Shown here: positions 45,501-53,480 of the stretch, piece by piece
Numbering within the stretch: position 1 is the stretch's first letter
Layout of the letters: every line of letters begins with the position of its first letter
Source: Metabacillus sediminilitoris
GTDB lineage: Bacteria > Bacillota > Bacilli > Bacillales > Bacillaceae
Assembly: GCF_009720625.1 (NCBI RefSeq)
Contig: NZ_CP046266.1
Location: 4,879,501-4,943,500 of the forward strand
Length of the DNA stretch: 64,000 bases
Direction of reading: 5' to 3'
Made by a program: the position numbers and the translations under genes
Notes under the pieces: model-generated
Seen by the model: only the letters and a program-made list of their open reading frames with translations
The model's database searches: none
What the model was told of the DNA's origin: nothing

Positions 45501-46724
45501 ATGGATGTAATCATTGAACGAGCATGTGGGATGGACGTTCATAAAGACTCTATCACCGCATGTATTCTTACACCAGAAGGAAAGGAGATTCAAACTTTTT
45601 CAACGAAAACCGTGTTTTTGTTAAAACTACTAGACTGGATTAAGGAACACAATTGTTCTCATGTTGCCATGGAAAGCACCAGCGTATACTGGAAGCCAAT
45701 TGTGAATTTACTAGAAAGTGAGGGAATTGAATTTTTAGTAGTCAATGCACAACACATTAAAGCTGTTCCTGGACGGAAAACTGATGTAAATGATGCTGAG
45801 TGGATTGCGAAGCTTCTTCGTCATGGATTAATAAAAGCTAGCTATATTCCCAATCGAGATCAAAGAGAATTACGAGAATTAGTTCGATACCGTAGAAGTA
45901 TCATTCAAGAACGGGCGAGACAACAAAATCGAATCCAAAAAGTGTTAGAAGGTGCTAACATTAAACTGGGTTCAGTTGTGTCACAAATTAAGGGTGTTTC
46001 CGCTATGGAGATGCTTCGTGCGATTGCTGATGGAGAAGATGATCCCGTAAAGCTCGCAAGCTTCGCTCGCAGAACATTGAAAAAGAAAAAAGAGGAACTA
46101 GAGTTAGCATTACGAGGCTACATTAGCCCTCATCAGCGAATGATGCTTAAAACAATTATCACTCACATTGATTTTCTTACAGATCAAATCGAGAAGGTTG
46201 ATAATGAAATTGCAGAAAGAATGAGTTCTTATCAAGATGACGTTGAACGTTTAGATTCAATTCCAGGTGTCGCTACCCGTATGGCAGAACAGATTCTAGC
46301 TGAGATTGGAACTGATGTTAAAAATCAATTTCCAAGCGCTGCTCATATGTGTTCTTGGGCAGGGTTAGTTCCAGGACAAAACGAAAGTGCTGGTAAAAGA
46401 AAATCTTCCAAAACTAAGAAAGGGAATAAATATTTAAAATCAGCCTTACAAGAAGCAGCTCACTCAGTAAGAGGATCTAAAAACTACCTTGGGGCATTGT
46501 ATCGACGTACAGCTGCCCGCAAGGGTACAAAACGCGCTGCTATTGTTGTCTCTCATGCCATATTGCGAATATGTTACTATCTTTTAACACGAAAAGAAAT
46601 GTATGTAGACTTAGGTGAAGACTACTTTGATAAACAAAGAGCACAATCAATTGTACGTCATTCGCTTCGTCGTCTTGAAAGCTTAGGCTACACCGTTTCG
46701 CTGACAGAAACAGAAGCATCCTGA
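45501..46724 (+). CDS. IS110-family transposase
   Basis: The 407-residue recombinase has an N-terminal RuvC-like DEDD domain: Asp11 in CGMDVHKDSI, Glu near residue 58 in VAMESTSVYW, and two Asp near residues 96-99 in GRKTDVNDAEWIA. A coiled middle follows, then the C-terminal Tnp20 domain with SIPGVATRMAEQILAEIG and SWAGLVPGQNESAGKRKSSK, which carries the catalytic Ser. The reading frame is intact, so the element may still be active. AGAGAGGAAAATTAAA precedes the ATG. Confidence 0.95.
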   Translation: MDVIIERACGMDVHKDSITACILTPEGKEIQTFSTKTVFLLKLLDWIKEHNCSHVAMESTSVYWKPIVNLLESEGIEFLVVNAQHIKAVPGRKTDVNDAEWIAKLLRHGLIKASYIPNRDQRELRELVRYRRSIIQERARQQNRIQKVLEGANIKLGSVVSQIKGVSAMEMLRAIADGEDDPVKLASFARRTLKKKKEELELALRGYISPHQRMMLKTIITHIDFLTDQIEKVDNEIAERMSSYQDDVERLDSIPGVATRMAEQILAEIGTDVKNQFPSAAHMCSWAGLVPGQNESAGKRKSSKTKKGNKYLKSALQEAAHSVRGSKNYLGALYRRTAARKGTKRAAIVVSHAILRICYYLLTRKEMYVDLGEDYFDKQRAQSIVRHSLRRLESLGYTVSLTETEAS

Positions 46725-47080: not shown

Positions 47081-47194
47081 ATGGTAACTTTTAACTTTAG
47101 AGGTTTTCCCTTTAATATCAATGCATTTCAACCACCTACTTTTGGAGGTTTTGCTGATGCCTTTGTCAAACAATTGTTCAGAAACCATAAGTGA
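47081..47194 (+). CDS. Small Phe-rich protein overlapping the HYR gene
   Basis: A 37-codon frame begins MVTFNFRGFPFNINAFQPPT with AAAAGGAG eight bases before the ATG at 47081. It ends inside the next gene, overlapping it by 38 bp in another frame. The ribosome binding site for the HYR gene (GGAGG) lies within this frame, so translation of the two is probably coupled. The product is rich in Phe, Asn and Pro. No family recognised. Confidence 0.55.
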   Translation: MVTFNFRGFPFNINAFQPPTFGGFADAFVKQLFRNHK

Positions 47195-47978
47195 CACACA
47201 ATCTGCTCTATGTGGAGCAATAACTAATACTCTAACCGCCCCTCAGATAATTTGTTCTAATGAAACATTTGTTATTAACCTTATCACCTTGATTAATGTT
47301 GCTTGTGGACCAGGTTTTGCTGGTGGTTTTACAATAGATCAAATATTTGCACAAATTTTAACTGGAAATGCGACTTTTACAGGGAATGTAGTTCCTGGTG
47401 AAATCCCACCTTCTGACGTTTTTCTAGCAGATCCACCCAATATTATACAGATTTCTTATGATGATGCGATTTTTGAAGTAGGACCGGGCGAATCAATAGT
47501 TAGAACGTTTGATCCTTTTGTCGGGATTGAAGTAGTTGCATCAGCAACCATTATCGAAGAACCGATCATTATTGAATTAAGTGTGACTGGACAATCATTT
47601 CTTGATACCGGTTGCACTTGTGGCCCTAACTTTGATGGCTATATTATTAATCACTCGTTGGAGCTTTTATTAGTTCCCTCCACTCATCCATGTTGTACAC
47701 CGACCATCACTTGTCCTGACGATATCACTGTTTTCAATGATTCAGGTACAAGTGGAGCATTTGTCAACTTTCAAGAACCTATAGTAAGCGATAACTCTCC
47801 TGGTGTTACGGCTGTGTGTACACCAGAATCTGGATCCTTCTTTCCCCCTGGTACAACAACAGTCACTTGTACCGCAACAGATGCATCTGGAAACATCAGT
47901 ACTTGTTCGTTCAACGTAAGGGTGATTGTAGACCCTTGCCGATTTTTTAGTGGTAGATGTAGACGAAGAAGAGGATAA
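47157..47978 (+). CDS. HYR-domain protein
   Basis: The product has about 273 residues with no signal peptide. The N-terminal 190 residues are beta-rich, hydrophobic and contain several Cys (ETISDTQSALCGAITNTL, TGCTCGPNFDGY). The C-terminal 80 residues match a HYR (hyalin) repeat: CCTPTITCPDDITVFND, then PPGTTTVTCTATDASGNIST. It ends in a basic tail, SGRCRRRRG. The start is ATG 47157 with GGAGG eight bases upstream. Proteins of this kind in Bacillus may be surface or spore-layer components; that is inference. Confidence 0.75.
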   Translation: MPLSNNCSETISDTQSALCGAITNTLTAPQIICSNETFVINLITLINVACGPGFAGGFTIDQIFAQILTGNATFTGNVVPGEIPPSDVFLADPPNIIQISYDDAIFEVGPGESIVRTFDPFVGIEVVASATIIEEPIIIELSVTGQSFLDTGCTCGPNFDGYIINHSLELLLVPSTHPCCTPTITCPDDITVFNDSGTSGAFVNFQEPIVSDNSPGVTAVCTPESGSFFPPGTTTVTCTATDASGNISTCSFNVRVIVDPCRFFSGRCRRRRG

Positions 47979-50873: not shown

Positions 50874-51398
50874 TTAATCCCTTAACGAGAAAAGGTAATA
50901 AATACAGGCTATCGTATATATATCAGTAACCGGTGATAAAATTTTAATCGTTATTGTCTTAGGCGGAATAGGCTTATCATATGTAATTTCGCAAATTGTT
51001 TTTCCACTACTGTCTTTAATCCTCGTCACCTTGTTGTAAATATCCTTTTCTACCTTGTAATGATGATTATGAATCGTATAGGCAAGCCTTGCATTCGTTT
51101 TAATTTTAGTATGATCCACTAGTTGAAACTCACCATATTCCTTATCGTTCACATCCCATTTTGATTTTAGAAAATTTTTTATAAATGGACCTTCCTGTGC
51201 ATTCACTTTTAGATCTCCATTTTTATCAAAAACTCTAACATGGATAGATAATTCATCAAATATTTGATCAACGATGTATTCAAATTTGTTTCTAAAATAT
51301 CGTTGAATGCTACCGATTATTTGGTCTTCAGAATCTATAATGTCTATATTTTTTGTAGACTTTTTTAAGATGGGTTTTTTAAATGTATAGATTTCCAA
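50874..51398 (-). CDS. Tubby-C-terminal-like (LURP/scramblase-fold) protein
   Basis: The 174-residue soluble protein is beta-rich: IDIIDSEDQIIGSIQRYFRN, VRVFDKNGDLKVNAQEG, YGEFQLVDHTKIKTNARLAY, then a hydrophobic C-terminal helix (ITIKILSPVTDIYTIACIYY). The pattern of repeated strands and one terminal helix fits the tubby-like/LOR superfamily seen in Bacillus proteins such as YxjI. Start TTG 51396-51398 follows GGTGGTGA. Function unknown. The 225 bp beyond it are AT-rich with nothing visible. Confidence 0.6.
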   Translation of the reverse strand: MEIYTFKKPILKKSTKNIDIIDSEDQIIGSIQRYFRNKFEYIVDQIFDELSIHVRVFDKNGDLKVNAQEGPFIKNFLKSKWDVNDKEYGEFQLVDHTKIKTNARLAYTIHNHHYKVEKDIYNKVTRIKDSSGKTICEITYDKPIPPKTITIKILSPVTDIYTIACIYYLFSLRD

Positions 51399-51623: not shown

Positions 51624-52028
51624 CACAGAACAAACGTTCCTTTTAAAGGTTGGAAATTTAGGGCAGGAATTATTGATGGTGAAGGCTCTATCACATTAAC
51701 TAGATTGCATGCAAACGAACACTGACGACCATGTATTACAATTTCTTCAACTGACAAAGAACTATTAATTTATATCTTTTCCTTAACCGGAGGAACAATT
51801 AATAATAAAAAGAATTATAATCCTGATCGACATAAAGATTCCTTTACATTAATAATAAAGAAAAAAGAGAATGTATTGCTTACTTTAAAACATGTATCAC
51901 GATATTTAAGAGTCGAGAAAAAAAGAAACCGTGCCATATGGATTTTAAAACACTATGAAAGGGTAACACTTAGAATCGGAAAATATAGTCCAACGCTTTT
52001 AAAAAAGAAGTTATTATTTGAGGAGTAA
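51624..52028 (+). pseudogene. LAGLIDADG homing endonuclease, interrupted by a nonsense codon
   Basis: The frame reads WKFRAGIIDGEGSITLTRLH, which contains the LAGLIDADG motif as RAGIIDGEG with its catalytic acidic residue. After codon 33 there is one in-frame TGA (51723-51725), then ITISSTDKELLIYIFSLTGG and VSRYLRVEKKRNRAIWIL, ending at a TAA. The 135-codon length and motif spacing fit single-motif endonucleases that spread group I introns. No good start codon is seen. A change from CGA to TGA would explain the stop. It lies 76 bp beyond the 3' end of ssrA on the opposite strand, outside the intron in that gene. Confidence 0.85.
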
Positions 52029-52087
52029 TTTTTTCGAATATAATGCTTCTTTCTACTTGATATGGGGTAAAAAAAACAAAATAAAAA

Positions 52088-52110
52088 CCACCAAATTATG
52101 TATTTGGTGG
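52088..52110 (-). terminator. ssrA terminator
   Basis: CCACCAAAT pairs with ATTTGGTGG; leftward it is followed by TTTTTATTTTG. One arm includes the encoded CCA end of tmRNA. Confidence 0.8.
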
Positions 52111-52121
52111 AGACGGTGGGA

Positions 52122-52401
52122 CGTGCTATTCCATACTTTCGATATGGCACTGACTATATCTTGAACCTGAAGACCAGGCCCCTCGGCGTATTATACGAAA
52201 CGTAGATTTATCTGAACATGTTCAGATGAAATTTCGTATCCTAGTACTACCCATGCAATGGCAGCCTATGAGTCGATACACGGCTGTTGGATTACTCCAC
52301 ATACCGCTCGGTATTGCCCTATCACTAATTAGGTGACTTAGGTTTCACCGATAAAGCCGAATTTTCACTTATGTGTTACCACATAAGGCGACTAATTACT
52401 A
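52122..52401 (-). other. Group I intron in the ssrA T-loop (280 nt)
   Basis: The intron starts TAGTAATTAGTCG after an exonic U and ends AGCACG with the terminal G expected of group I introns. The 3' part has GGTTCAAGATATAGTC, the conserved R/S core segment. A GUCG in the intron can pair with exon CGAU to form P1 with the U-G pair at the splice site. No frame is inside it. Removing it restores a normal T-loop. Confidence 0.88.
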
Positions 52402-52621
52402 ATCGAACCCACGTCCAGAAACATCGCCACTTAAGCGTCTACGAGCGTAGTCGATATATTCGCAGTTTCGCTAACTCCTATGCCTATCGACAGGCGTCAG
52501 AGCAGCTAGTCTGATTAATCTCTTCCATCATCCCCAGACGGAGGAATTAGGTGTAGTCCACTAAGAGTGAGTCCCTTACCCTACCACATGGACGATGGAG
52601 GGAGGAACAGCTACGCAGTTA

Positions 52622-52657
52622 TTAAGCTGCGAAAGCTAAGTTATTGTTAGTTTTGCC
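52622..52657 (-). other. tmRNA tag-peptide frame
   Basis: Eleven codons GKTNNNLAFAA then TAATAA. With the alanine carried by tmRNA itself the tag is AGKTNNNLAFAA, ending in the AA degradation signal. It is shorter than the 15-residue tag of B. subtilis. Confidence 0.9.
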
Positions 52658-52850
52658 AGTTATTATTGGCGTGACGTTTTAACGAAGACGATCCCTTCGG
52701 CCCGCAACCTAAGCTCGAACTACCCCTGTCGAATCCGTAACGCCCCCATGATAAGCCGTATATACCAGCTAGGGAATACGGGAGATATGAAGATAGAATA
52801 AGCTTAATTGCTTATGAAATTGTTGTGTAAGTGACTGTCTTACAAAACCT

Positions 52851-52892: not shown

Positions 52893-53363
52893 CTAATAAT
52901 CTTTTTGGCGATCGCGGAAGGCACGTTCGATATCGCGTTTTGCTTCTTTTTTCTTTAAGTCTTCACGCTTATCATATTTCTTTTTACCCTTACCAAGACC
53001 GATTAAAACTTTAGCATAGCCATTTTTTAAGTACATTTTCAGCGGGACGAGTGCATATCCTTCTTCTTTCGTCGCACCGATTAATTTAACAATTTCACGT
53101 TTATGGAGCAAAAGCTTTCTTGTACGCAGTGGTTCGTGATTATATCGATTTCCCTGCTCATATGGACTCACATGCATATTGTGTAAAAAGACTTCCCCGC
53201 CTTCAACACGTGCGTACGAATCCTTTAAGTTCGCACGGCCATTTCGAATCGATTTAATTTCTGTACCTTGAAGGACAATGCCGGCTTCATATGTTTCTTC
53301 GATAGAAAAATCATGATTCGCCTTTTTGTTTTGTGCAACGACTTTTCCCATTCCTTTAGGCAT
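52893..53363 (-). CDS. smpB: SsrA-binding protein SmpB
   Basis: The 156-residue protein has the SmpB signature [20 protein letters not shown] then [10 protein letters not shown], the mid region [20 protein letters not shown], and the basic C-terminal tail [19 protein letters not shown] that enters the mRNA channel. It binds the tRNA-like part of tmRNA and places it in stalled ribosomes. Start ATG 53361-53363 follows GGGGAGGGG; a longer frame upstream has no ribosome binding site. ssrA follows by 145 bp. Confidence 0.96.
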
Positions 53364-53480
53364 TGTTTCCCCTCCCCTCAAAACTTGCGGATTTAGCGAT
53401 AGACTATTATTTTAGCAAATAATGGACGTAATCTCAATGATTACGCAGTTACTTTTAAATTGATTCCATCAAACGGAAAG

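Follow-up and report, generated by a model that had tools for sequence, protein, structure and literature searches.

A group I intron in the T-loop of a Metabacillus tmRNA gene and its likely homing partner, a LAGLIDADG endonuclease gene outside the intron

Within the 64,000 nt of Metabacillus sediminilitoris DNA analysed here (from here: the window), the tmRNA (ssrA) gene is interrupted in its T-loop by a block that is supported as a group I intron, and a decayed gene for a LAGLIDADG homing endonuclease lies just outside. In related Bacillota this gene is mostly open, stands antisense beside the tmRNA gene and is found together with the intron. Judging from these sequence comparisons, intron and gene likely constitute a two-part mobile unit that spreads by collaborative homing, in which the nuclease would cut intronless T-loops and the intron would shield its carrier.

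Background

Intron-form tmRNAs are by now well documented. In 2025, 883 unique sequences were reported, all of them with the intron in the T-loop and predominantly from Bacillota; most of these introns occupy one T-loop subsite, and the main subsite spans 21 phyla (PMC11915505). The initial annotation of the window, by which such introns were known in a few bacteria, has been overtaken in this respect, and the novelty it saw in the compact size does not hold either, the published mean length being 293 bp as against 280 nt here (PMC11915505). Endonuclease genes were counted inside 36 of the 883 tmRNA introns (4.1%), compared with 54% of archaeal rRNA group I introns (PMC11915505). That count covers genes inside introns only; the words "downstream" and "free-standing" are absent from the main text of that report, and no mention of a neighbouring gene was seen in it. 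A literature search over titles and the starts of abstracts returned nothing on an endonuclease gene adjoining an intron-bearing tmRNA gene; an older mention may exist.

Results

The tmRNA gene and its intron

The intron-form tmRNA gene occupies positions 52105..52747 on the minus strand of the window. It consists of a 5′ exon (52402..52747, assigned by RF00023 and sequence), which ends with ...GUGGGUUCGAU at the sixth T-loop base, and the 3′ exon UCCCACCGUCUCCACCA (52105..52121, assigned by sequence and by covariation of the T-stem with the 5′ exon), separated by a block of 280 nt at 52122..52401, exactly as initially annotated. The RF00023 match reached 152.4 bits (E 5e-60), its alignment dropping the 3′ side of the T-arm and the acceptor at the intron split. 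The acceptor sequence GGGGGCG lies at 52747-52741 and the CCA of the 3′ exon ends at 52105; a tag, (A)GKTNNNLAFAA, was read by eye from the sequence in an open reading frame. A probable terminator hairpin that uses the CCA end and is followed by a T run was likewise read by eye (52083..52110, minus strand), and smpB, the partner gene of tmRNA, is located upstream at 52893..53366 on the same strand (Pfam SmpB, E 5.7e-64). ARAGORN, as run on the window, reported no gene.

Across the 5.6-Mb single-contig genome RF00023 gave a single match above the cut-off, the other 36 matches scoring at most 31.5 bits, and the intron occurs in one copy. A second intact ssrA, which together with purely unspliced RNA had been named as a point against the intron claim, was searched for genome-wide and not found. 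The best reading of the sequence is that splicing has to remove the 280-nt block before the cell's sole tmRNA has a complete T-arm; because no second intact ssrA was found in the genome, it is fair to infer that tmRNA activity depends on splicing.

The 5′ exon ends with ...GGGUUCGAU and the 3′ exon starts with UCCCACC, so that the joined exons form a five-pair stem, GUGGG/CCCAC, around the seven-base loop UUCGAUU, the restoration that had been predicted. In an alignment of 58 introns (that of the window and 57 relatives, short exon flanks included) this T-stem, one half of which comes from each exon, pairs in 58 of 58 sequences. Three of its five pairs never vary, and the second is U-A in 48 sequences, C-G in 6, G-C in 3 and A-U in 1. 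The percentage paired, the number of cells changed on both sides and the covariation score each exceeded all 500 shuffles, while the number of pairs changed was reached by 54 and the number of pair types by 108 of the 500. We read this pattern as selection on the joined helix.

The insertion point follows the sixth T-loop base. A U (52402) stands directly before the intron, its terminal base is a G (52122) and it contains AAGATATAGTC, all features on which the initial annotation had relied. The group I model RF00028 matched positions 52131-52411 on the minus strand with 37.7 bits (E 6.8e-8 in 901 bases). The covariance-model check that had been proposed thus returned a significant match, though one that stays below the gathering score of 50, which is a detection threshold and not a defining trait of group I introns. 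A default Rfam scan, which applies the gathering score, does not list the intron, and E-value mode is needed to see the match. Folding of the block with three flanking bases gave a z-score of -2.95.

The elements P1, P2, P3, P4, P5, P6, P7, P7.1, P7.2, P8, P9.0 and P9 were named on the window sequence, in which every named pair is standard. Across the 58-intron alignment 97.9% of 4114 cells are paired, compared with 92.1% after shuffling, a soft control as the aligned introns are related, and with 30-42% after sliding by 1-3 columns, a control that favours the structure as it was drawn on one of the aligned sequences. Changes on both sides were seen in 38 of 71 pairs (15.7 in shuffles, 6-11 when slid), and none of 500 shuffles reached the observed value on any of five measures. 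The splice-site U.G pair of P1 is present in 58 of 58 introns; P7 is invariant across them and hence uninformative for covariation, and a P10 pairing, looked for by eye, is weak. The group I core of P3, P4, P6, P7 and P8 is accordingly complete and accompanied by P1 with its splice-site U.G pair. Owing to the covariance-model match, the covariation of the structure and the restoration of the T-stem, the assignment of the block as a group I intron in the tmRNA T-loop is supported at the level of sequence comparison. The six-frame list of open reading frames contains no endonuclease reading frame inside the intron.

Elsewhere in the window we noted genes for an IS110-family transposase (45501-46724, plus strand), a HYR-domain protein with an Arg-rich C-terminus (47121-47978, plus strand) and a protein with a Tubby C-terminal-like domain (50874-51398, minus strand; Pfam E 1.3e-39).

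The endonuclease gene

The neighbouring endonuclease relic of the initial annotation is real. It is a decayed LAGLIDADG homing endonuclease gene at 51657..52040 on the plus strand, outside the tmRNA gene and convergent with it, with 67% identity to the intact gene of another Metabacillus genome (G014). Two in-frame stops, one TGA and one TAA, mean that it is no longer an open gene, and Pfam at E 1 recognised neither of its two pieces. Against Pfam LAGLIDADG_1 the intact G014 protein scores 29.3 bits (cut-off 23.1), and the best PDB matches of an AlphaFold2 model of the endonuclease (pLDDT 91.6) are I-MsoI and I-CreI (Foldseek TM about 0.7). The intact relatives therefore combine a domain above the curated cut-off with the fold of LAGLIDADG homing endonucleases, and the enzyme is probably a homodimer of the I-CreI/I-MsoI type. 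In all, 339 proteins match the G014 protein, and among the 120 matches listed the length is mostly 135 aa.

Scanning the GTDB species genomes gave 170 confirmed loci, the best 80 of which were analysed. A tmRNA HMM match on the opposite strand lies beside the gene in 67 of these best 80 (66 full-length, L140 partial), and the intron is present in all 66 loci in which the exon end was read, none being intronless. With cmscan, which added L139 and confirmed L140, both of which match the intron HMM, the count rises to 68 of the best 80 loci. The gene lies outside the tmRNA gene and antisense to it, as a rule with a gap of about 45 nt to the 3′ end (the stop codon lies a median of 45 nt past the 17-nt 3′ exon, range 27-602, in 59 loci). 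It is open over the match in 62 of the 68 loci and the median dN/dS is 0.21 (0.07-0.44; 109 pairs with dS 0.05-1.5), which together indicate purifying selection. According to record titles, the hosts include Metabacillus, Neobacillus, Peribacillus, Cytobacillus, Mesobacillus, Rossellomorea, Fictibacillus, Virgibacillus, Halalkalibacter, Clostridium and Lutispora.

For 12 of the best 80 loci the sequence around the gene gave no tmRNA match. In M. crassostreae (L068) the gene lies about 30 kb from the tmRNA gene; at L108, L119 and L141 just 0.2-0.8 kb of contig remains on the side concerned; a further five are L100, L103, L125, L128 and L131. At three Clostridium loci (L145, L146, L147), where no tmRNA was found, a degenerate tmRNA-like 3′ end can be read before the endonuclease gene. 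As a separate observation, the tmRNA 3′ exon seems to be without a full encoded CCA end in L075, L076, L078, L081, L085, L096, L120 and L137.

Intron and gene within Metabacillus

The genus sample comprised 21 genomes including that of the window, and a tmRNA was matched in 20 of them and in one not. Twelve of the 20 carry the intron in the gene, the window among them, six are without it and two (G011 and G013) have a displaced intron; with 12 of 21 genomes bearing the intron, the host is not the novelty that had been claimed. The search for the endonuclease gene covered 6-7 kb downstream of each tmRNA gene. There G014 has an intact gene, whereas in G006, G015 and G016 the part of the gene that was matched contains one stop each; the gene is decayed in the window genome and fragmentary in G011 and G013. 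The remaining 13 genomes, all six intronless ones included, gave no match in this region. Seven of the 12 intron-bearing genomes are thus without the gene downstream of tmRNA, and one of these seven, G002, has a copy about 30 kb away. On a tree of the upstream region, in which some nodes are weakly supported, intron and gene are scattered across the genus.

In G011 and G013 (L056, L058; also L014, L015) the T-arm of the tmRNA gene is intact and has another stem. Just downstream the intron persists from P5 onward, together with the former 3′ exon and scraps of the endonuclease gene. The tmRNA 3′ end now in place has a GAGGG stem, as in three intronless relatives. These two genomes suggest one route of intron loss, in which the 3′ end of the tmRNA gene was replaced and a remnant of the intron left outside; the expelled intron may be a scar of island integration or recombination.

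Two further genomes, G003 (L065:6949-8060) and G016 (L066:8209-9307), carry an additional tmRNA of standard form, closely grouped with tRNAs and the large SRP RNA, in G016 also with 6S RNA. The group resembles an RNA cluster of mobile or phage origin, although a search of phage records found none that covers 80% of it.

Viral relatives

The eight closest relatives on viral contigs (L268-L275) were compared; the same eight came out on top of a second viral scan with a broader alignment. By cmscan, a tmRNA is located beside the gene or overlapping it in five of the eight, the matches in L269 and L270 being barely above the cut-off. L271 has, in this order, an intact intronless tmRNA, the gene and a perfect 19-bp copy of the tmRNA end that starts in the T-loop; none of 2000 mononucleotide shuffles gave a repeat of 15 bp or more. 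This single case looks, from its sequence, as if an insertion into the T-loop with a carried 3′ end had left it. In L272 the gene lies just past an intronless tmRNA, without a copy of the tmRNA end. The gene appears antisense inside an intron in L269 and L270, between the two strands of P7 as read in L269, and the Bacillota intron HMM found no match in either contig. A split T-loop was recognized by reading in L273, and in L275 the gene is placed within the gap of a permuted tmRNA. A tRNA abuts the gene in L268, and neither tmRNA nor tRNA lies beside it in L274. Among named phages, Lacusarx has a relative beside a permuted tmRNA gene and WilliamBoone one between tRNA genes; direct repeats flanking the relatives were not found in these two records. 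Among the 20 viral relatives that rank next (L276-L295) no tmRNA was detected, and one of them has tRNAs.

Two further searches led to rejected candidates. Insertions of the L271 type were sought in 65 Bacillota loci, where no second copy of exon 2 beyond the gene was convincing (at best 4-5 mismatches in 17). The intron DNA pattern occurred in at least 120 stretches of viral contigs, most of which were judged chance on a rough estimate.

Association of gene and intron

Since the count over 80 loci starts from the gene, 299 genomes of the order were sampled as an unbiased test. RF00023 detected a tmRNA at E 1e-25 in 293 of them. The intron was called by a 20-base pattern covering T-loop, P1 and P2 in 74 genomes (backward control pattern: 0), and the gene at E 1e-3, decayed copies counted, in 44. 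Gene and intron were both present in 40 genomes, the gene alone in 4, the intron alone in 34 and neither in 221 (p 1e-24), corresponding to an intron in 40 of 44 genomes with the gene versus 34 of the 255 that lack it. Gene and intron are neighbours in 34 of the 40 double-positive genomes, at a spacing from the intron pattern of 284-434 nt in 33 and 1418 nt in one. The other six are not adjacent (29, 30, 41 or 454 kb away, or on another contig). In G252, G341, G208 and M. crassostreae a distance of 29-41 kb separates the gene from the intron-bearing tmRNA within one contig, perhaps as a result of islands inserted between them. Counted by genus, from lists copied by hand, 24 of 26 genera with the gene have the intron (p 4e-13).

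The four genomes with the gene alone differ. In G336 a divergent (33%) open relative lies antisense about 0.7 kb beyond an intronless tmRNA, in G158 a relic of 26 residues about 2 kb beyond an intronless tmRNA, and in G100 and G192 gene and tmRNA are on separate contigs. In a phylum sample, endonuclease matches occurred in 12 of 398 genomes. Nine of these loci were scanned (L478, which is the window, L483, L485 and L486 lay outside the scan); a tmRNA was found in five, three of them with the intron (L475-L477). Standard-length tmRNAs without an intron-HMM match lie beside a decayed gene in L479 and L480, and in L481 an intron HMM match is located about 1.4 kb from a gene fragment.

A different explanation has to be weighed against these data, namely that the intron is an ordinary, endonuclease-free and mostly vertically inherited one, and the gene an unrelated free-standing element that homes downstream of tmRNA. 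The region downstream of tmRNA genes is a hot spot for mobile DNA. The 34 of 74 intron genomes without a detectable gene, which count against homing, fit such an element, as do the divergent relative in G336 and the viral relatives beside intronless tmRNAs in L271 and L272. However, the association persists within the 21 mixed genera, where (again from the hand-copied lists) the gene was found in 29 of 53 intron genomes versus 2 of 44 intronless ones (p 4e-8), and the gene was antisense in all 34 adjacent pairs. Moreover, intron and gene distances are correlated with each other once those of exon 1 and SmpB are allowed for (Mantel r 0.44, reached in 0 of 999 permutations), a test that controls host relatedness in part and leaves some shared ancestry, and relatives sit, by reading, inside T-loop introns. 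We consider an unrelated element unlikely.

Less probable still, to the point of being doubtful, is a role of the LAGLIDADG protein as a trans-acting maturase of the intron instead of a mobility enzyme. Maturases do occur among the LAGLIDADG proteins of group I introns, and purifying selection on the gene would suit such a function, but 34 of the 74 intron genomes manage with no detectable gene, the window intron has kept all its named pairs although its gene is dead, and the gene has relatives at intronless tmRNAs (L271, L272). A loss of splicing that would leave this strain with a dead tmRNA gene, as the RF00028 score of the intron under the gathering cut-off might hint, is highly improbable given the standard pairing of all named elements, the helices conserved with compensatory changes in relatives, the complementary T-stem, the tag frame open by eye and the presence of smpB.

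Discussion

We favour the two-part mobile unit as the explanation for the outlying gene and its intron. Counting against it are, besides the 34 of 74 intron genomes with no detectable gene, the seven of 12 intron-bearing Metabacillus genomes that have none downstream of tmRNA, the six double-positive genomes in which the two are not adjacent, the 12 of the best 80 loci that gave no tmRNA match, the divergent relative in G336 and the lack of a convincing exon-2 copy in 65 Bacillota loci. The corresponding layout, an intron without a reading frame and an adjacent free-standing endonuclease gene, is found in the relatives, and in the window with a dead gene. In such a unit, the endonuclease would cut intronless tmRNA genes within their T-loop DNA. 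With an intron-bearing copy as the repair template the intron would be acquired, and co-conversion reaching across a few hundred bp would carry the endonuclease gene along. The intron would split the target site and so protect its carrier, while splicing would keep the tmRNA working. T-arm DNA is close to an inverted repeat, a kind of target for which a homodimeric enzyme would be well suited. The endonuclease gene would be expected to decay when no targets are left, as it has in the window. The intron would stay after the decay of the gene, because precise intron loss is presumably rare, and in the window it would be a spliced passenger.

A wider reading, for and against which we see the balance as even, is that of a LAGLIDADG family specialised on the T-arm of tmRNA and tRNA genes in bacteria and phages. 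The tmRNA introns would then be shields that let the nuclease persist, and many introns regarded as endonuclease-free would have, or have had, an adjacent partner. Within such a family the gene could live on its own together with a copied 3′ end of the tmRNA gene (L271), within T-loop introns (by reading, L269, L270 and L273), in or beside permuted tmRNAs (L275, Lacusarx), beside tRNA genes (L268, WilliamBoone) or antisense outside an intron-bearing tmRNA, as in Bacillota.

If true, a conserved motif of tRNA and tmRNA genes would be the DNA address of a nuclease family. The two-part unit would also offer an answer to the published contrast between widespread T-loop introns and the 4.1% of them with an endonuclease gene (PMC11915505). 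Collaborative homing, described for phage genes (PMC6083498, PMC3984707), would then be a common chromosomal strategy in Bacillota.

Comparison with known systems

The window intron itself is of a known kind. Like the published intron-form tmRNAs, it is a group I intron in the T-loop with a U at position -1, a terminal G and a similar length, and its subsite is that of most published cases as we read the numbering of that report (PMC11915505). The outlying endonuclease relic is the interesting part.

In fold and size the endonuclease resembles the single-motif LAGLIDADG enzymes I-CreI and I-MsoI, the latter also being the best sequence match, whereas identity in fold alignments is 18-22%. I-CreI and I-MsoI are encoded inside organelle rRNA introns.

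The closest parallel in layout is the cyanophage psbA intron with F-CphI, likewise a group I intron without a reading frame, whose host gene has a free-standing endonuclease gene as its neighbour, the intron being located at the presumed cut site (PMC6083498, PMC3984707). F-CphI has an Endo VII motif, belongs to a phage system and has had its cleavage shown (PMC6083498, PMC3984707), whereas the system described here is of the LAGLIDADG family and mostly chromosomal, with an antisense gene, tmRNA as the host gene and cleavage as a proposal.

SegB of T-even phages is also free-standing and is located among tRNA genes; its reported motif is RAWTSGAAC (PMC13096335), by our reading the complement of a T-loop sequence. 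It differs in belonging to the GIY-YIG family and in having no intron partner (PMC13096335). As a free-standing nuclease directed at tRNA genes, SegB is a precedent (PMC13096335).
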